Below the pieces are notes generated by a model. It saw only the letters and a program-made list of their open reading frames with translations, made no database searches and had not been told where the DNA came from. Shown in pieces: positions 3-55,060 of a stretch of 64,000 bases of DNA; within the stretch, counting starts at the first letter, position 1, and the number at the start of each line of letters is the position of its first letter. A program made the translations under genes and the position numbers. This stretch comes from Teredinibacter turnerae (GTDB lineage: Bacteria; Pseudomonadota; Gammaproteobacteria; Pseudomonadales; Cellvibrionaceae): contig NZ_CP149817.1 of NCBI RefSeq assembly GCF_037935975.1, positions 4,650,001-4,714,000 on the forward strand, given 5' to 3'.

Positions 3-1640
3 GGCTTGTTTATCCCCATGGTGATGGGACAGCACGCGTTGCCGCTCACGCTCTTTAATTGGGACATCGTGGTCGGCATCGACAGCTGGGAACGTGTCAC
101 GCTCTGGTCGCTCGGCCTCAACACCTGCGCATTTGTCATTCTGTCGCTACTCACCCGGCAGTCCAATGATGAGAATTACAGTGCCGAACTCTGTGCAGAG
201 GATGAAATGAGCCACCCAATCCGGATGGCCCTGGATATTCGCGCACCGGAAGAAATCGTCGAGCGGCTGACTCACCGCATCGGCGAAACCACTGCGCGCG
301 CGGAAGTCAATCGCGCCCTGGAACAACTCGGGTTCAACGTGGGCGAAAGCCGCCCCTACGCGCTGCGCCGATTGCGCGACGAAGTTGAAGCCAACCTGTC
401 AGGGTTGATGGGGATCTCAATGGCCACCGAAATTATGGATAGCGAGCTGCCCTACAAAATTCCGGAAGTCGACGGCGTGGCGGATATCAACCTGATGGAG
501 AGCCGTGTCAATGAATATCGCGACCACCTTACCGGCCTCGCCGCCGAGCTGAACGACCTGCGTCTCTACCACCGGCGCACCCTGGAAGAGCTGCCAATGG
601 CGATCTGTTCGGTGGGCAAGGATATGGAAGTGCTGATGTGGAACAGTGCCATGGAGCAAATGACCGGCATTACCGCAGACCATGTTACCGGGTCACGCCT
701 GCCGCAGGTGCTCGAACCCTGGGGTGAGCTGTTGAGCCGCTTTGCCAATTCGAGCGCGCCACACTTCTATAAACAGGAAGTCGAGCTGGCGGGTAAAACC
801 CATTGGATTACGCTGCACCAGGCCGCAATTCACTCATCCCTGGCCCACAAGGCCAGCGGTCTGGTGATCATGCTGGAGGATGTGACCGAGATGCAGCTGC
901 TGGAGCAGGAACTGCTGCACAGTGAACGCCTCGCATCCGTGGGCCGGCTGGCTGCGGGCGTCGCTCACGAGATTGGCAACCCCGTGACCGGAATCGCCTG
1001 TATCGCACAAAATATGAAGTATGAAACTGAAGACGCTGACCTTTTGGAGTCTGTGGATCAGATACTCTCGCAAACCGATCGTGTAAGCCGCATTGTGCAT
1101 TCACTGGTAAATTTCTCGCACTCCGGTCAGCAGCCGCAAGAAGACAATGCGCAACTGCCCATCGAGCTGCGTGACTGTGCACAGGAAGCCATCGACCTCA
1201 TCAAATTACAGCAGAAGGGCGACATCACGTTCGAAAATACGGTCGACCCCGGTCTCACCGCCATGGGCGACACGCAGCGCATGATTCAAGTGCTGGTGAA
1301 CTTGTTATCTAACGCACGCGATGCCAGTCCGGATGGTGGACACATCATCGTGAATGGCGATCTGCGCAAGAACTGGGTGCACCTGTCGGTGACTGACGAA
1401 GGTACCGGAATCTCACCGGAGTTACGCGACCAAATCTTCGAGCCCTTCTTCACCACCAAAGAGCCTGGAGAGGGCACCGGGCTGGGCCTGGCGATGGTTT
1501 ACAGCATCGTCGAGGAACATGGCGGCCTGTTAGAGATCATAAGTCCTGTGGATGAGGTGTTACAAAAAGGCACAAAATTTGTGATTAAGCTACCCAAACC
1601 CCTTGAAACCGCTGCCACGACAGGTAACACTAGGCGTTAA
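3..1640 (+). CDS. cbrA: CbrA-like sensor histidine kinase (C-terminal part)
   Basis: C-terminal 545 or so residues of a membrane sensor kinase; the reading frame is open to the window edge, so the N-terminus lies outside. A hydrophobic segment at about residues 31-50 looks like the last helix of a sodium/solute symporter module, as in CbrA. A PAS domain follows (about 195-300), then a HisKA domain with the phospho-acceptor in AHEIGNP, then an ATPase domain with an N box ([11 protein letters not shown]), G1 (DEGTGIS), F box (FEPFFTTK) and G2 (GTGLGLAM). All catalytic boxes look intact. In pseudomonads CbrA phosphorylates CbrB to adjust carbon/nitrogen use. The identity is supported by the next genes (sigma-54 regulator, then pcnB, folK, panB), which is the Pseudomonas cbr order. 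Confidence 0.85.
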
Positions 1641-1698: not shown

Positions 1699-3102
1699 AT
1701 GAGCAAAATACTAATAGTTGAAGACGAAGACATTATTCGCACAGCGCTGCGTAAGTTGCTCAACCGCAATAAATATGATGTCGAAGAAGCGGGCTCAGTG
1801 AGTGAAGCCACCAATAAATACAAGCTCGGCAATTTCGACCTGATCATTAGCGATCTTCGCCTTCCTGGCGCGCCCGGCACCGACCTCATTCAGATGGCCG
1901 GAGAGATTCCGGTGCTCATCATGACCAGCTATGCAAGCCTGCGCTCGGCCGTAGACTCAATGCGTATGGGCGCGGTGGACTATATCGCCAAACCTTTCGA
2001 TCACGATGAAATGCTGGCGGCGGTAAAACGGGTAATCGGCAAGTCCAGTGCCCGCAAGCAGCAATCGCAGGAACAACATACCGATGGCGATAACCAGGCG
2101 GCTATCGAAGGCATGATTGGCAGTAGCGCGGTAATGAAGTCGCTGTACGCCAAGATTCACAAAGTCGCCCCGACCAATGCAACGGTGCTGGTACATGGTG
2201 AAACCGGTACCGGCAAAGAACTGGTCGCTCACGCACTGCACGATGAAAGCCCTCGCCGCAGCCGCCCGCTTATCTCAGTCAACTGCGCGGCAATTCCGGA
2301 AACACTCATCGAGGCCGAACTCTTCGGTCACGAAAAAGGCGCATTTACCGGTGCCGCATCCACCCGCGAGGGCCTGGTGGCTGCCGCCGACGGCGGGACC
2401 CTGTTTCTGGACGAAATCGGCGAGCTGCCGCTGGAAGCCCAGGCGCGCTTGTTGCGCGTGCTGCAGGAAGGCGAGGTCCGCCCAATCGGCTCCGTGGAAT
2501 CGCGCAAAGTGGATGTACGCCTCATAGCAGCGACTCACCGGGACCTGGGCAAGCTTTCGCGCGAAGCCAAGTTCCGCGAAGACCTGTACTACCGGATCAA
2601 CGTTGTTCAGCTTAAATTGCCGCCGCTGCGCGAACGCGGTAAAGACATACTCGCGCTGGCGGAGGCTTTCGTCGAACGCTTCTGCCAGGAAATGGACAAG
2701 CCCGCGCTCAGCCTTACTCCAGAAGCTATCCAGGCGATTACCACTTACACATGGCCAGGTAATATCCGCGAGTTGGAAAACGCCATCCAACGCGCCGTTA
2801 TTCTTTGCGAAAACCAAACCGAGATCGATCACGAACAATTGGCGATCGATCTGGACCTTGTCCGGCTGGACGAAGATCCCCACGAACTCGCCCAAGCCAA
2901 TCGCGCCAGTAATAGCACCAAGCCGCGCAACGAACCCACAGAAGATCTCTCGCTAGAGGACTACTTCCAACGCTTCGTGCTCGAGCACCAGGATACAATG
3001 AGCGAAACCGAACTGGCCCGTAAGCTTGGCGTCAGCCGCAAGTGTCTCTGGGAGCGCCGCCAGCGCCTCGGTATTCCGCGCAGCAAGCCCACTCAAAAGT
3101 AA
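1699..3102 (+). CDS. cbrB: CbrB-like sigma-54-dependent response regulator
   Basis: NtrC-class activator of 467 residues. The receiver domain (1-120) has the acidic pocket (VEDED), phospho-acceptor Asp52 in SDLRLPG and the conserved Lys in AKPFD. The AAA+ domain has Walker A (GETGTGKE), the sigma-54 contact loop GAFTGA and Walker B ([11 protein letters not shown]). The C-terminus carries a Fis-type helix-turn-helix ([19 protein letters not shown]). An upstream in-frame ATG at 1603 would overlap cbrA and add 32 residues. I prefer 1699 because it begins the receiver fold directly and has a purine-rich AAAGAG ahead of it. The likely target lies immediately downstream: a sigma-54 promoter at 3332-3348 with repeated half-sites at 3166-3256. 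Confidence 0.9.
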
Positions 3103-3165
3103 CCGCTCCCCCACCCCGCCGAATCCCGCTTTCCCTTCCCTCCAGCAACCGGACGTTGCTGGGGT

Positions 3166-3256
3166 GTTACCACACGCTAATAATCCGTTACTTGAGCCAG
3201 GGAACAATTGTTACCGAAACCTGTCACGCCGTAACAACCCCGAGACATAAAGTAAC
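3166..3256. promoter_or_regulatory. Five phased GTTAC half-sites, probable CbrB enhancer
   Basis: Five 5-bp half-sites lie at 3166, 3187 and 3210 (GTTAC) and 3231 and 3252 (GTAAC, the reverse complement). Start-to-start steps are 21, 23, 21 and 21 bp, about two helical turns. The central pair is extended to TTGTTAC-N16-GTAACAA (3208-3237). They sit about 80-190 bp upstream of a sigma-54 promoter, the usual place for an NtrC-type activator. The form resembles the inverted-repeat CbrB sites I recall from pseudomonads; binding by this CbrB is inferred. Confidence 0.7.
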
Positions 3257-3331
3257 GAATCACTGATTTTCAAGCGAATAAAATGGACCTCAAAAGTATC
3301 TATACCATTGTTTTATAAGGAAATTATTTTG

Positions 3332-3348
3332 TTGGCACGAGCTGTGCT
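3332..3348 (+). promoter_or_regulatory. Sigma-54 (RpoN) promoter of the CrcZ-like RNA
   Basis: TTGGCACGAGCTGTGCT matches the sigma-54 consensus, with GG (3334-3335) and GC (3346-3347) exactly 10 bp between first bases and the full TGGCACG block at -24. Transcription should begin near 3359, just before an A-rich tract. It follows a sigma-54 activator gene and the phased half-sites. Confidence 0.85.
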
Positions 3349-3358
3349 CTACATGATT

Positions 3359-3612
3359 CACAATAACAACAATAAAGAATAATAAGAAAGTGCTACATAG
3401 CAAATAACAACAATAAATAATAAAAAGAACAGAAGAAACACATAACAACAACAAATAATAACAACGAAAAAAGCGTATAAACTGACTTGTGTACCTTTGG
3501 AGAGGTGTTGCCCAAAAGGCAAACTAGCGGACAGGGAAGTGTCCAGTTGATAAAAAAACGATAAATCAACACAATCCAGATTAGACGGGAAAGCCTTCGG
3601 CTTTCCCGTTTT
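3359..3612 (+). ncRNA. crcZ: CrcZ-like Hfq/Crc-sequestering small RNA
   Basis: About 250 nt between the sigma-54 start and a strong terminator, with no convincing reading frame. The 5' half holds four clusters of A-rich AANAANAA elements (3362-3375, 3379-3390, 3402-3427 and 3442-3474), built from repeats such as AACAACAATAA. In pseudomonads such elements bind Hfq with Crc, and CrcZ, transcribed from a CbrB/sigma-54 promoter between cbrB and pcnB, titrates Hfq to relieve catabolite repression. Position, promoter type and motif content all match; length is shorter than the roughly 400 nt of Pseudomonas CrcZ. Alternatives such as an untranslated pcnB leader are weakened by the terminator. Confidence 0.8.
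3585..3612 (+). terminator. Terminator of the CrcZ-like RNA
   Basis: An 11-bp perfect stem (ACGGGAAAGCC with GGCTTTCCCGT, arms 3585-3595 and 3599-3609) with a TTC loop, followed by a short T run. It ends the small RNA ahead of pcnB. Confidence 0.85.
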
Positions 3613-3739
3613 GGTATCCGCCCCCCCCCGCAAAAAGAATGGCCGTGCTCTAAGCTTCTAAATGAATCGGCAGCGTTGTGGTAGACTGCGCGCCACACGT
3701 TGGTTTCAAGCCCAGCTACGGAGAGAAAGCCTTTCAGCA

Positions 3740-5134
3740 ATGCTAAAACAGCTACTGCAATTCAATAAATCCCGCAATGAGAAGCGATTTGGGAGCGCCC
3801 GAGGACCTCTCGGCGCCACTGTGATCCCTGAAAAAGCGCACAATATTCCGCGCGAGCTGATAAGTCGCAACGCCATCCGCGTTATCGACCAGCTGTTGGA
3901 TGCCGGTTACGAGGCTTATCTGGTCGGCGGCGGCGTGCGCGATCTGCTACTCGGCGGGAAACCCAAGGATTTCGACGTAGCTACCAGCGCAACCCCGGAA
4001 CAACTCCGCGGGATATTTCGCAATGCGCGTATTATCGGCAAGCGCTTTCAGATCGTTCACGTCCGGTTTGGACGGGAGATTATCGAAGTCACCACCTTCC
4101 GCGATAACCACGCGGTAGCGGACGATCATCAGCAGGCTAAACAGTCTGAACACGGCGTGTTACTGCGCGATAACGTCTATGGCAATCTAAAGACCGACGC
4201 CGAACGCCGGGACTTCACCGTCAACGCCCTGTACTACAATCCACGCAGCCGCGAATTGCTTGAATTCAGCACTGGTCTGGAAGATCTCAACGACCGGGTG
4301 ATCCGTATCGTGGGCGATCCGCAAACCCGCTACCGGGAAGACCCGGTGCGACTGCTGAGAGCCGTGCGCTTCGCAGCCAAGCTCGGGTTCACCATCGAAC
4401 CTGTTACCGAAGCGCCCATTCGCGAGCACGCCGATTACCTGACCCACATTCCCCCGGCCCGCTTGTTCGAGGAAGTGCTAAAACTGTTTATGTCCGGGTC
4501 GGCGACGGCCACGATCAACCTGCTGCGCGAATATCACTTGTTCAAGTATCTGTTCCCGGATACCGACTTCTGTATGGAAAATGGTCGTGAACCCGATCGG
4601 GCCATGGTTATGAACGCCGCAGCCAACACCGACAAGCGCATTCGCCAGGGCAAGAAAGTTACCCCGGCATTTATCTATGCGGCCTTCTTGTGGCCGGCGC
4701 TGCGCGCAAGCATGCGACACCTGGCGAAGGAGCAGAACTTGCCCACGCAGGAAGCCATGCAGCGGGCCGCGCAGGGCATCATCAGCCAGCAACTGGCGTA
4801 CACCAGTATTCCCAAACGCTTCCTGATCCCCATGCGCGAAATCTGGTCGTTACAGCTGCGGCTGCCACGCCGGCAAGGTCAGCGTGCCTTCACACTGCTC
4901 GAACACCCGCGCTTTCGCGCCGCGTACGACTTCCTGTTACTGCGTGAGGAATCTGGAGAGAACTGCCAGGGGCTCGGCGATTGGTGGACGCGGTTCCAGG
5001 CCGATAGCCAGGCGCGCGACCAGATGGTCGACGAGCTGTCACAGCCGCAAGCCGCGAACCCCGCCGCAGTTCGCCGTCCGAAGCGCCGCCGCCCACGCCG
5101 TTCCGGCAGCAATCCGCCCAGCAGCACCGACTAA
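3740..5134 (+). CDS. pcnB: Poly(A) polymerase I
   Basis: 464-residue nucleotidyltransferase that adds 3' A-tails to RNA and so marks it for decay. The N-terminal head has the family signature LVGGGVRDLLLG followed by KPKDFDVATSATP, whose two aspartates bind the metals. The RNA-binding middle contains GDPQTRYREDPVRLLRAVRF. The C-terminal tail is Arg-rich (RRPKRRRPRR), as in other PcnB proteins. I chose the ATG at 3740 because MLKQLLQ resembles PcnB N-termini and GGAGAG lies about 11 bases upstream; the ATG at 3662 would add 26 residues that look unrelated. First gene of a compact run with folK, the nucleoside kinase and panB. Confidence 0.93.
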   Translation: MLKQLLQFNKSRNEKRFGSARGPLGATVIPEKAHNIPRELISRNAIRVIDQLLDAGYEAYLVGGGVRDLLLGGKPKDFDVATSATPEQLRGIFRNARIIGKRFQIVHVRFGREIIEVTTFRDNHAVADDHQQAKQSEHGVLLRDNVYGNLKTDAERRDFTVNALYYNPRSRELLEFSTGLEDLNDRVIRIVGDPQTRYREDPVRLLRAVRFAAKLGFTIEPVTEAPIREHADYLTHIPPARLFEEVLKLFMSGSATATINLLREYHLFKYLFPDTDFCMENGREPDRAMVMNAAANTDKRIRQGKKVTPAFIYAAFLWPALRASMRHLAKEQNLPTQEAMQRAAQGIISQQLAYTSIPKRFLIPMREIWSLQLRLPRRQGQRAFTLLEHPRFRAAYDFLLLREESGENCQGLGDWWTRFQADSQARDQMVDELSQPQAANPAAVRRPKRRRPRRSGSNPPSSTD

Positions 5135-51610: not shown

Positions 51611-54600
51611 TTACAAAGCGACGACACTGACCTGGTCGAGGTAGATGCCCGCCGCTTGGGCTGGGCCACCGAAGTACATGGACACTTCAGTCAGGTTACA
51701 TGCTGGCAGTGTGACGCTGCCAGCCACTTCAGTCCAATCGCTGTCGTTAACTTCCGCGGAACCCGCCCAGATATACTCCTCTGAACCATCGTCACAAGCG
51801 ACTTTTACAGTGATATTCATCGCTTCGGCACTGCCCGCATCGACGCGTGCAAACGCTGCGATGTCGTAGCTGGAGCCAGCGGTAACACTGCTCAGTAAGC
51901 TGTACACTGGGCCTTCCCAATCTCCCGTACGGGTGGTCAGGTAAGCGGAATAAGCGCCGTCGTAGGCCTGATCCGCAGAGCGCTCCAAGGTACCACCCCA
52001 ACTGATCCAGCCGTCCAACGACTCTTCGAAACTACTGTTAGCAACGAGGTTGCCTACGGGTGGTTCTACAACCGCACCTTCCTGCCACACTACGACGTCA
52101 TCAAGCAGAATATCAATACCTGCTGCTGGACCGGCAAAGTAAACCACGGCATCCATCGGCTCGCATGATGTGGTAGTAACTACGCCTGACAACTCGGTCC
52201 AGCCGCTGGAGTTGACTTCAGCCTGACCACCCCACAGATACTCCTCAGAACCATCTGCGCAGGTTGTTTTCAAGGTAATGGTAGCGGTTGCAGAGGCCGC
52301 GCCATCAATTTTGATGAACGCGCTAACATTGTAGTCTGCATCGGCGACAACGCTCAGCGGATACACCGGGCCCTGCCAGTCGGCGGTGCGACCGGAATGC
52401 AGCGCACTTTGCGCACCGGTGTGGGCATCTTCACTCACAGAAAGAACGCCACCCCAGACCTGCCAATCATTGATACCGGCTTCGAAGTCGCCGTTAATGA
52501 CCAAATTGGGTACGCTCGGCGCTTCACCGGAGATAAACACGTCGTCCAGGTAGGTATCCACACCCACTGCCGGACCGTCGAAATACAAGGTCGCTTCGGT
52601 GAGGTCACAATCAGACGGCAGAGTGATCGTGCCGGACAGTTCTGTCCACTCTGTATTGTTGACCAGTGCAGAAGCCAGCTGGTGATACGCAGCCTCGCCA
52701 CCACAGGTCGTCTTCACCGTGATATTCAGCGTGTCTTGCGAGACGCCTTGCACCATGCCCCAGGCCGTGATTTCGTAATCCCCGCCAGCGCTGGCGACCG
52801 AGAGCAAATCGAACACTGGACCTTGCCAGGATGCGGTACGCGACGATAAAACGCCAGCAGCGGCACCAGAGCGCACGTATTCGTCACTGGTACCCAAGGC
52901 GCCGCCCCAGGTAGTCCAGCTTTCGGTACCCAGCTCGAAACCACCGTTAGGGTGCAGGTTGCCATCGTCGACAATATCGAGTGCATCCGAGGCTTTGTTA
53001 TCACGACGTAGATACACTTCGTCGATTAACATGTTTACATCTGCAGCAGGCCCTTCGAAGTACAGGGTTGCATCCAGCAATTCACAGTCAGGCACCAGCA
53101 CGCTTCCGCGCAGCAAGGCCCACTCGCCAGCAGCAACGTTGACATTGCCAATGTTCAGATAGGCATCGTCTTCCCCGGCACAACTGACTTTGAGGGTCGC
53201 ACCAATTCGTGAGTCGGCACTGTCGGCCTGCACCCAGGCAAACAGATCGTAGATATCGCCTGCTTGCACACCGGCAGTTACATTGGTGGCGGGGCCCTGC
53301 CAGCTGTCAGTACGGCCAGTCACGTATCCGCTTTGTACGCCGGATTTAACATTGTCAGTGGTGGTTTCTACAACCGCACTGCCAAAGCCGAACCAGTCGT
53401 AAGCGCCATCTTCGAAATACGGGTTGGTCACCAGGTTTTCAGAGAAACCTTCAGCGGTCGGAACCAGTACCTGCGGACGCGCGACAACACTGTCTACCAG
53501 GATTGAAGTACCTGGACGCGGACCATTAACCAATAAATCGACCGCCTCAATCTCACAGTTCGGCAAGGTCACCGTACCACCGATTGTTTGCCAGCGACCA
53601 AAGGTCGCGAACGCGGTCTCTAGATTGGTCAACTCTTCAGTGCCATCAGAACACAGCGTGCGCACGTTCATTTCCACGGTATCGCCACGGGCAAAGCCAA
53701 ACAAGCGCGAAAGTAACGGCACCAGTGAAAGCTGCGGTATTTTGACTTGCGAGCTTATATCGTAACTCTGACCTGCCAGGGCAACATCAGAAAAATCGTA
53801 GCGCGCTCCCGCTTCACGCGAGTCACGACCGATAACCAGCATCGAGTTCGCCTGGCCCCTACCGAGCGCACGAATGCGATGTACATCCGCATTTTCACCT
53901 GTCCAACCCTGCACGCCGCCCTCGAATTCGCTGTTGGCGATGAGGTTTGGCAGTGGGTTCTCGTCTGGCTCAACGCCCATGAAACCATCGAGCATGCCGT
54001 AATAGGCAGGCTTGCGCTGGTTATCGTCATCCCAGGCAAGCGCAGCATCTTCGCCAAAGGTGTAGTTGATCCAGGAATTTTTGTCTGACACACCCCAGGT
54101 GGTCACTGCCTCACAGCGGCGCACTGCCATACAGGCACTTACGACGCGATGGTAAACCTGTCGCTGAATAGCGATGTTGGTTTGGTAGTCCCAGGGTAAA
54201 TCCGCAACACGCACATCCAGCTCGCTGATGTTTACGCGCAGCCCCAGGTTGGCGAAGCGCGACAAGTTAGCCACCAGTTCGTCGTAGCTGGGCGCGGTAG
54301 CAGCGGTCAAATGCATTTGAAAACCGACGCCATCGATAGGCACGCGGTTGTTCACCAGGCCTTGAACCATCTCGTAGACTGCGTCGGACTTCGCGTTGAG
54401 GCCGGCGATGTTGTAATCGTTATAGAACAGCACTGCGCGGCGATCTACCGAATGTGCTGTGTGAAAAGCGTTCGCAATAAAATCAGCACCGAGGGTACGG
54501 TACAACACAGAGTCTCGATACTCTGCATCGTCACCCATGGCTTCGTTAACAACATCGTAAGCACGGATTTCGCCGCTATAGCGCGACATAACTGTCGTGA

Positions 54601-55060
54601 TGTGATCGTCGATAAGCGACTGCAACTCGTCGGCGGAAAGGTCGTCAGTTACAAAACCCGGTGCTTGCGAGTGCCAAACCAACGCATGGCCTTTGTAAGC
54701 CAATTCGCTTTGGCCCGCGAACTCGACCATCTGGTCGTGGGTGTCAAAATTCCACTCGCCCGGTGCGGGCTGCAACGGCCCCCACTTGCCGGAGTTTTCC
54801 GGGGTCATGTAGTTAAATTCGCCGGTGACGATATCGACAAACTGCTCGTCGTTGGTCACCAGCCCGTAGCCCGCGGCCACACCAACTAAACGGCGGGACC
54901 GCTCAGCGGCGTCGGCCAGCGTTTCCACTTGGCCCGGTGCAGGACGGGAAAAACCAGGAAAGAGTGACTCTAAAGAAAAATCGGATGTTGCCATAGCTGC
55001 AGATGGGAATACCCCCAACGCGAGCATAGCGAGCCCGAGACGCTTGGTACGAAAGCGCAT
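51611..55060 (-). CDS. GH10 endo-1,4-beta-xylanase with five CBM4/9-like modules
   Basis: 1149 residues. A signal peptide (1-24, AMA cleavage) and a Ser/Pro-rich stretch lead to the GH10 catalytic domain (about 45-365): acid/base Glu173 in YDVVNEAMGD and nucleophile Glu280 in NISELDVRV. Five carbohydrate-binding modules of the CBM4/9 type follow, starting near 370, 541, 698, 851 and 1003, each opening with a pattern like NLVxNxxFExGxxxW and ending with a Cys-led strand (LTEATLYFDGP). Modules 3-5 are most alike, showing internal duplication. Secreted xylan-degrading enzyme, divergent from a CE4 deacetylase gene. Confidence 0.93.
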   Translation of the reverse strand: MRFRTKRLGLAMLALGVFPSAAMATSDFSLESLFPGFSRPAPGQVETLADAAERSRRLVGVAAGYGLVTNDEQFVDIVTGEFNYMTPENSGKWGPLQPAPGEWNFDTHDQMVEFAGQSELAYKGHALVWHSQAPGFVTDDLSADELQSLIDDHITTVMSRYSGEIRAYDVVNEAMGDDAEYRDSVLYRTLGADFIANAFHTAHSVDRRAVLFYNDYNIAGLNAKSDAVYEMVQGLVNNRVPIDGVGFQMHLTAATAPSYDELVANLSRFANLGLRVNISELDVRVADLPWDYQTNIAIQRQVYHRVVSACMAVRRCEAVTTWGVSDKNSWINYTFGEDAALAWDDDNQRKPAYYGMLDGFMGVEPDENPLPNLIANSEFEGGVQGWTGENADVHRIRALGRGQANSMLVIGRDSREAGARYDFSDVALAGQSYDISSQVKIPQLSLVPLLSRLFGFARGDTVEMNVRTLCSDGTEELTNLETAFATFGRWQTIGGTVTLPNCEIEAVDLLVNGPRPGTSILVDSVVARPQVLVPTAEGFSENLVTNPYFEDGAYDWFGFGSAVVETTTDNVKSGVQSGYVTGRTDSWQGPATNVTAGVQAGDIYDLFAWVQADSADSRIGATLKVSCAGEDDAYLNIGNVNVAAGEWALLRGSVLVPDCELLDATLYFEGPAADVNMLIDEVYLRRDNKASDALDIVDDGNLHPNGGFELGTESWTTWGGALGTSDEYVRSGAAAGVLSSRTASWQGPVFDLLSVASAGGDYEITAWGMVQGVSQDTLNITVKTTCGGEAAYHQLASALVNNTEWTELSGTITLPSDCDLTEATLYFDGPAVGVDTYLDDVFISGEAPSVPNLVINGDFEAGINDWQVWGGVLSVSEDAHTGAQSALHSGRTADWQGPVYPLSVVADADYNVSAFIKIDGAASATATITLKTTCADGSEEYLWGGQAEVNSSGWTELSGVVTTTSCEPMDAVVYFAGPAAGIDILLDDVVVWQEGAVVEPPVGNLVANSSFEESLDGWISWGGTLERSADQAYDGAYSAYLTTRTGDWEGPVYSLLSSVTAGSSYDIAAFARVDAGSAEAMNITVKVACDDGSEEYIWAGSAEVNDSDWTEVAGSVTLPACNLTEVSMYFGGPAQAAGIYLDQVSVVAL

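Follow-up and report, generated by a model that had tools for sequence, protein, structure and literature searches.

In P. aeruginosa, the 407-nt RNA CrcZ was described as carrying six A-rich stretches (ARN repeats of at least four) and as sequestering Hfq via the distal face of the protein (PMC4063720). Its transcription partner has been studied in P. putida, where CbrB acts through F-type (TGTTAC) and R-type (GTAACA, the R2 of crcZ being GTAACg) subsites spaced by 20-25 bp, and where IHF assists CbrB action (PMC6296734). According to the same paper, substituting any one of the three subsites of P. putida crcZ abolishes in vitro binding. Further copies of the RNA, named CrcY and CrcX, are found in some Pseudomonadaceae (PMC8871633).

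The two-component system CbrAB has been presented as unique to the Pseudomonadaceae (PMC8871633) and as exclusive to pseudomonads (PMC6296734). The former source, a 2022 review, gives Pseudomonas and Azotobacter as the exclusive CbrAB hosts and as the only genera with a described cbrA-cbrB-crcZ layout. In the open-licence literature, no report was found that joins CbrB with Cellvibrio or places crcZ outside Pseudomonas. Among the matches listed in that literature, none reported CrcZ in Cellvibrio, Saccharophagus, Teredinibacter or Marinobacter, none joined CrcZ to any of five marine names, none reported CbrA/CrcZ in Marinobacter, and none linked Teredinibacter turnerae to Crc, to CbrA or to catabolite repression.

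The window, i.e., the whole stretch of 64,000 nt analysed here, is part of the complete 5.35-Mb genome of T. turnerae (G000:C1:4650001-4714000). It contains a predicted RNA gene that shares its strand with both neighbours, cbrB and pcnB, with cbrA and cbrB upstream and pcnB and folK downstream (Table 1). The cbrB-pcnB spacer (3103-3739) measures 637 nt, of which 35% are A. The C-terminus of cbrB is common to Pseudomonas CbrB loci, and an alternative upstream start of pcnB is possible at 3662. The predicted RNA is very probably the Cellvibrionaceae counterpart of crcZ, a CbrB-driven decoy that would sequester Hfq(-Crc). Judged by its sequence, this is a real and conserved CrcZ-type locus outside the Pseudomonadaceae, with a divergent RNA body. 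The position, the layout of CbrB sites and sigma-54 promoter, the ARN repeats and a genome that encodes CbrA, CbrB, RpoN, Hfq and Crc lend strong support to the CrcZ-like identity proposed by the first-pass annotation.

Table 1. Features in and around the cbrB-pcnB spacer (window positions, except for the whole cbrA gene)
Feature	Position	Strand	Remarks
cbrA 3′ part, SLC5-STAC-PAS-histidine kinase	6..1640	+	HisKA, HATPase_c and PAS matches; structure 10ED match
cbrA whole gene	G000:C1:4648656-4651640		994 aa
cbrB, sigma-54 activator response regulator	1699..3102	+	Response_reg + Sigma54_activat
Putative CbrB subsite F1, TGTTAC	3209..3214	+	F hexamer of PMC6296734
Putative CbrB subsite R1, GTAACA	3231..3236	+	22 bp from F1; R hexamer of PMC6296734
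Putative CbrB subsite R2, GTAACG	3252..3257	+	21 bp from R1; cf. P. putida crcZ R2 GTAACg, PMC6296734
IHF-like site, degraded, about 7 of 9 by hand count	3301..3313	-	Place shared with relatives; not the top match of the scan at this locus
Sigma-54 -24/-12 promoter	3332..3348	+	Sequence TTGGCACGAGCTGTGCT
Predicted CrcZ-type RNA, about 251 nt	3359..3609	+	Promoter-to-terminator span
A-rich module 1, (AAN)5-N-(AAN)4	3362..3389	+	
A-rich module 2, (AAN)5-N-(AAN)4	3403..3430	+	
A-rich module 3, (AAN)4-N-(AAN)3	3444..3465	+	
Conserved region GCGTATAAACTGACTTG...GGAGAGG, hairpin GGACA/TGTCC, predicted structure	3473..3546	+	Alignment A4, single-sequence fold
Intrinsic terminator	3585..3612	+	Stem-loop ACGGGAAAGCCTTCGGCTTTCCCGT at 3585-3609, then TTT
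pcnB, poly(A) polymerase I	3740..5134	+	TIGR01942, 533.7 bits, above cut-off

The sigma-54 promoter suggested by the first-pass annotation is borne out, with the GG at 3334-3335 and the GC at 3346-3347, and the pattern TGGCAC-N6-TGC has this single occurrence in the 64-kb window when both strands are scanned. The predicted first transcribed base lies at about 3359. The standard promoter scan targets sigma-70 promoters. What is new is the presence upstream of three putative CbrB sites whose order (F, R, R) and spacing are as in P. putida crcZ. The promoter is accompanied by F1, R1 and R2 about 20-25 bp apart. Counted from the TGG of the -24 element, the three subsites start at -124, -102 and -81; the corresponding values for Pseudomonas loci, L068 and L081 for example, are -124, -104 and -82. 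The spacer also contains an extra TGTTAC at 3165. An IHF-like site matching 8-9 of 9 positions lies at -32 (once at -33) in 33 of 40 loci, Pseudomonas included, while seven of the 40, among them the window's own locus and Pseudomonas L140, have no site of that quality there. Upstream of Pseudomonas crcZ, the Rfam family P36 (RF01679, a listed sRNA) matches the F1-R1-R2 stretch (L068:2759-2819 and L131:2678-2740); the P36 match region may be regulatory DNA or read-through, not a separate sRNA.

Downstream, the terminator that had been placed about 250 nt after the promoter was confirmed as a stem-loop kept in the alignment of relatives. It is the sole consensus structure predicted on an alignment of 14 relatives, with 11 predicted pairs, 3 of which have changes on both sides; the region 3473-3546 is not part of that consensus. 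The standard terminator scan reported none in the window, and it is blank at this site because its rule needs at least 5 T in 8 bases, the tail here being TTTGGTAT. The predicted length of 251 nt compares with 407 nt for P. aeruginosa CrcZ (PMC4063720), in line with the earlier remark that the RNA is shorter than known CrcZ. Could the A-rich stretch instead be a longer 3′ UTR of cbrB or a 5′ leader of pcnB acting in cis? Its place between two same-strand genes would allow this, as would the observation that the Pseudomonas cbrB promoter reads through into crcZ (PMC8871633). However, the stretch is preceded by a sigma-54 promoter of its own, with putative CbrB sites, and is closed off before pcnB by a conserved terminator, and the tandem copies of other families are easier to reconcile with an independent RNA, which makes a cis-acting leader or UTR very unlikely. 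A small ORF in the 3′ half of the RNA was considered and dropped, as the reading frames, compared by eye, differ between species.

Between promoter and terminator, the four A-rich clusters of the first-pass annotation had to be corrected to six AAN runs of at least three triplets, arranged in three bipartite modules; counted as ARN runs of at least four triplets, there are five. The step from one module start to the next (3362, 3403, 3444) is exactly 41 nt. Several of these ARN/AAN runs are of a kind that could fill the Hfq distal face. Predicted folds leave most of the A-rich block unpaired, and the fold of 3359-3616 has a z-score of -4.19. The 637-nt spacer has 17 occurrences of AANAANAA; 2000 dinucleotide shuffles gave 2.3 on average and never more than 11. 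Limited to the A-rich block, a comparison in which A content is already controlled for, the count is 16, against 4.65 on average and at most 14 in dinucleotide shuffles.

The likeness to Pseudomonas CrcZ (RF01675; P. aeruginosa PAO1 and P. putida) covers the cbrB-pcnB position, F1/R1/R2, the sigma-54 promoter, an IHF-like site (weak here), a first (AAN)5 run that begins 3 nt past the predicted start, several A-rich runs and a terminator. In contrast, the A-rich runs form three mostly unpaired bipartite modules here, whereas they are scattered and partly held in hairpins in Pseudomonas CrcZ. RNAs of the CsrB/RsmZ type bind CsrA/RsmA through GGA hairpins. As an RNA with many sites that soaks up a translational repressor, the predicted RNA would resemble these decoys (a comparison made in PMC4063720), but with ARN runs for Hfq, not GGA hairpins.

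Conservation was followed through CbrB. Matches of at least 52% identity were used from 57 of 58 genomes, the own genome included, while G053 (best match 38%) was left out. A second, named set comprised the best 80 of 458 CbrB matches, mostly from Pseudomonas, with Stutzerimonas, Cellvibrio, Gilvimarinus, Exilibacterium, Marinimicrobium, Pseudomaricurvus, Zhongshania, Halioglobus and a few bins. A spacer was called closed when pcnB was reached in the fetched stretch, as in 44 of the 57 relatives' loci, and the layout was scored when a sigma-54 site was followed by AANAANAA within 20-70 nt. The layout is present in 41 of these 44 closed spacers, the scan not finding it in L030, L055 and L060, and in 6 of the 13 relatives' loci without pcnB in the stretch. 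In the named set of the best 80 of 458, it is present in 78/78 closed and 0/2 open spacers. Combined, 116 of 119 closed spacers are positive, the total being 119 because five spacers, three of them closed, are common to both sets. With a tolerance of 4 bp around the expected position, 29 of 41 relatives and 75 of 78 named loci have the full set of three CbrB subsites, and 36 of 41 and 77 of 78, respectively, have at least two. Applied to 20 other stretches of the own genome, 800 kb of strand in all, the same scan gave 0 matches.

The 41-nt step is present in L008-L014, of the same genus, and recurs exactly or nearly in other genera (L016, L017, L018 and L022), while further loci, such as L025, L032, L071 and L065, do not have it. 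The search of relatives for the same cbrB-pcnB spacer, proposed at the outset, gave a positive answer, with conservation at the genus, family and order levels. That the stretch is functionless, low-complexity intergenic DNA is conceivable from the A content of the spacer, but this idea is already contradicted by the conservation at these levels and is further opposed by the shuffle tests, the regular 41-nt spacing and the control scan without matches, so that its probability is close to nil.

At the gathering threshold, Rfam finds only a tRNA in the window. The CrcZ model RF01675 scores 20.7 bits against the window, below its gathering cut-off of 95. On 13 further loci, it gives 353 and 296 bits for two Pseudomonadaceae controls; of the 11 non-Pseudomonadaceae loci, five score 19.6-36.3 bits and six are without a match at E 1. 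Hence Rfam at its cut-off misses the CrcZ-type locus in the non-Pseudomonadaceae loci tested. The RNA body is predicted to differ from Rfam CrcZ by its unpaired, tandem (AAN)5-N-(AAN)4 modules. In minimum free energy (MFE) folds of ten rows (the window, close relatives, Cellvibrio, Gilvimarinus, Marinimicrobium and Pseudomaricurvus), 10 of 86 A-rich runs fall in short hairpins, compared with 11 of 23 in four Pseudomonadaceae, 13/13 in the loci of families f38 and f6, 8/12 in f28, 2/4 in f29 and 0/3 in f47, counts which come from single-sequence folds of few loci and are a lead only. For L153, L154, L155, L157 and L158, the predictions place most or all of the A-rich runs in the loops of short hairpins, as opposed to the mostly unpaired modules of the window.

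The 3′ half of the RNA contains an element that is not A-rich, GCGTATAAACTGACTTG...GGAGAGG (window 3473-3510), well conserved in close relatives and in most rows of alignment A4. An additional base-pairing activity of the RNA through this element (GACTTG...GGAGAGG) would account for the conservation of a sequence that is not A-rich in most rows, but the element may be structure only, and such a second activity seems distinctly unlikely.

All the partners of a CrcZ-type decoy are encoded in the genome, namely CbrA, CbrB, RpoN, Hfq and Crc. Residues 1-601 of CbrA match the SLC5-STAC structure of P. putida CbrA (10ED, E 2e-152) and are followed by PAS and kinase domains, and RpoN is identified with 499 bits. 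Both hfq and crc, whose absence would have counted against the first-pass annotation, are present, crc adjoining pyrE (TIGR00336) at locus L005 (G000:C1:5035516-5036286, minus strand) and encoding 257 aa. The top two PDB matches of this protein, with 258 and 257.5 bits, are labelled catabolite repression control protein; the third, 2myi (243.9 bits), is labelled exodeoxyribonuclease III, though we take it to be a Pseudomonas Crc, and the next match scores 200.6. Under NCBIfam models, the protein receives only the xth / exodeoxyribonuclease III label, so an annotation pipeline may call Crc an exonuclease. This label may be one reason why Crc has been overlooked outside Pseudomonas.

Over residues 1-74, Hfq closely resembles its P. 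aeruginosa counterpart, and the distal-face residues Y25, L26, I30, L32, Q33, Q52 and T61 (as given in PMC6422490) are all kept. Compared with P. aeruginosa, Crc keeps R138, K139, R140, R141, K155 and R230, while the contacts R137T, E142H, M156K, N184Q, E193V, R196P, R229T and F231K are changed (residues as given in PMC6422490). Since several Crc contacts differ, the Hfq/Crc/RNA assembly may differ in detail.

From its CrcZ-like parts, we infer that the RNA titrates Hfq, and by analogy with Pseudomonas its transcription, CbrB control, Hfq/Crc binding, derepression and choice of target mRNAs can be proposed as follows. Under poor carbon supply, a CbrA signal would lead to phosphorylated CbrB acting on TGTTAC/GTAACA/GTAACG about 80-125 bp upstream, and IHF may bend the DNA between enhancer and promoter. 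Sigma-54 RNA polymerase would then produce the terminated RNA of about 251 nt, whose unpaired (AAN)5-N-(AAN)4 modules would bind the distal face of the Hfq hexamer, alone or with Crc. The decoy would thereby pull Hfq off A-rich translation-initiation regions and allow secondary-carbon mRNAs to be translated.

The spread of the locus was followed with R1, a sequence-only model built from 40 sequences and running from the CbrB sites to the first A-rich run. R1 has one match in the own genome (E 3.6e-24; 6 and 14 candidates scored). In the order sample, each of the 18 genomes of the own family has a match of at least 4.2e-16 quality, 13 of these genomes not having been used to build the model, and Crc is found in the same 18/18. 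At E ≤ 0.001, R1 matches 339 of 390 genomes of the order sample, which is not a locus count because many matches are weak and R1 was partly built from the same genomes. In some families of the order, R1 matches are weak or absent among the rows listed. At 1e-4, R1 matches 46 of the 185 genomes in the class sample, and G000 and G055, both in the R1 building set, alone pass 3e-8. Outside the order, the class sample gave no strong match, the 43 matching genomes reaching at best 3.2e-8 (34 bits), with matches that span only part of R1. In f26, the genomes listed have Crc and a weak (about 1e-5) or no R1 match. In f43, G078, G114 and G142 are listed as lacking Crc at 1e-20 and have weak R1 matches.

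Four R1 matches lie within 1.7 kb in G137, and two each in G064, G326, G041 and G132. Both cbrB and pcnB are present in the tandem stretches of the latter four, pcnB alone in that of G137. The CrcZ-type promoter plus RNA is thus seen in tandem near pcnB in L155 (G137:C17:59102-60825), L153, L151, L154 and L149, two of the copies of G137 being nearly identical. CrcY and CrcX resemble the predicted RNA in promoter class and in the Hfq/Crc decoy role proposed for it, as that role is described for Pseudomonadaceae; unlike them, the locus of the window is the single R1 match of its genome, and the tandem copies near pcnB occur in other families.

In genus g82 of family f28, the four genomes G100, G131, G158 and G205 have an R1 match of 5.2e-9 to 1.1e-11 and no Crc match at E 1e-3, and A-rich runs are seen between cbrB and pcnB in L157 (G131) and L158 (G100). 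These genomes possibly carry an Hfq-only version of the CrcZ-type locus. Across the order sample, Crc was not found at 1e-20 in 75 of 390 genomes; among 20 listed, four have R1 at 1e-8 or better (counted by eye). The four g82 genomes, together with Hfq distal-face residues that are all kept while several Crc contacts are not, would suit an RNA that titrates Hfq alone, its output being a general release of Hfq and not Hfq/Crc catabolite control. For T. turnerae this is rather unlikely, though the least improbable of the alternatives, as its own genome has Crc and every one of the 18 family genomes combines an R1 match with Crc.

The locus extends the cbrA-cbrB-crcZ layout to the Cellvibrionaceae and to other families of the order. 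A broader proposal, to which we give somewhat less than even credence, is that CbrAB-CrcZ-Hfq/Crc would be an old system of the whole order (GTDB Pseudomonadales), in which the enhancer-promoter stayed nearly unchanged while the RNA body was rebuilt repeatedly, with bipartite Hfq sites, unpaired and in tandem, in Cellvibrionaceae, with sites in hairpin loops and repeated gene copies elsewhere and with one genus without Crc, and that in Cellvibrionaceae it would gate the translation of secreted plant-polysaccharide hydrolases. The natural variants offer a set in which the reading of A-rich RNA by Hfq and Crc can be studied, and polysaccharide degraders such as Cellvibrio gain a concrete candidate for post-transcriptional catabolite control.

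In Saccharophagus, a genome paper describes glucose-dependent catabolite repression, linked to adenylate cyclase and CAP homologues, and also names phosphotransferase homologues (PMC2386152). The term Crc is absent from the main text of that paper and from a review of hemicellulase regulation (PMC10766802). For the amylases of Cellvibrio japonicus, substrate detection was favoured over catabolite repression (PMC10714805). That hierarchical sugar use is controlled here as in pseudomonads is a prediction only, given the Saccharophagus account and the outcomes for gene starts and acs below.

In a search for candidate targets, the starts of 326 genes, called crudely over 464 kb (the window and 20 stretches of 20 kb), were scanned for AANAANAA from -60 to +8. 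The 26 A-rich sites found at gene starts do not differ significantly from 200 dinucleotide shuffles (mean 19.5, sd 4.5, maximum 30), nor do the 21 genes with a start-proximal AANAANAA (16.1 in shuffles, maximum 23). The sense strand has 26 occurrences at -60..+8 against 5 antisense, and in the narrower range of -32..+8 there are 15 genes sense and 6 antisense; given the shuffle result, most of this excess reflects A-richness. The acs gene was rejected as a conserved site, the motif being present in 4/8 genomes of the genus and in the same place in 2/8 (G000 and its near twin).

Ten of the 21 motif genes, chosen by eye, were searched with Pfam, and 5 encode GH or PL enzymes with signal-like starts; among 55 motif-free genes with signal-like starts, 20 were searched and 5 encode GH, CE or CBM proteins. 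Fisher's test of 5/21 against 5/305 gives p 1.4e-4, but the comparison is post hoc and the second count a lower bound, so the polysaccharidase excess is a lead only. The five plant-polysaccharide hydrolases or lyases with AANAANAA at -60..+8 are L160:5663, L161:592, L164:10667-12559(-), L175:2540 and L176:3840-5924(-). Among GH5 homologues, the motif lies near the first ATG in 5 of 7 rows, at differing places and in a paralogue-rich group, 3 of 10 loci having no ATG in the stretch. The pectate lyase has matches in 4 of 8 genomes, full-length in the near twin only. The window itself also encodes, at 51614-55060 on the minus strand, a large GH10 xylanase that has a signal-like start and four CBM4_9 stretches.
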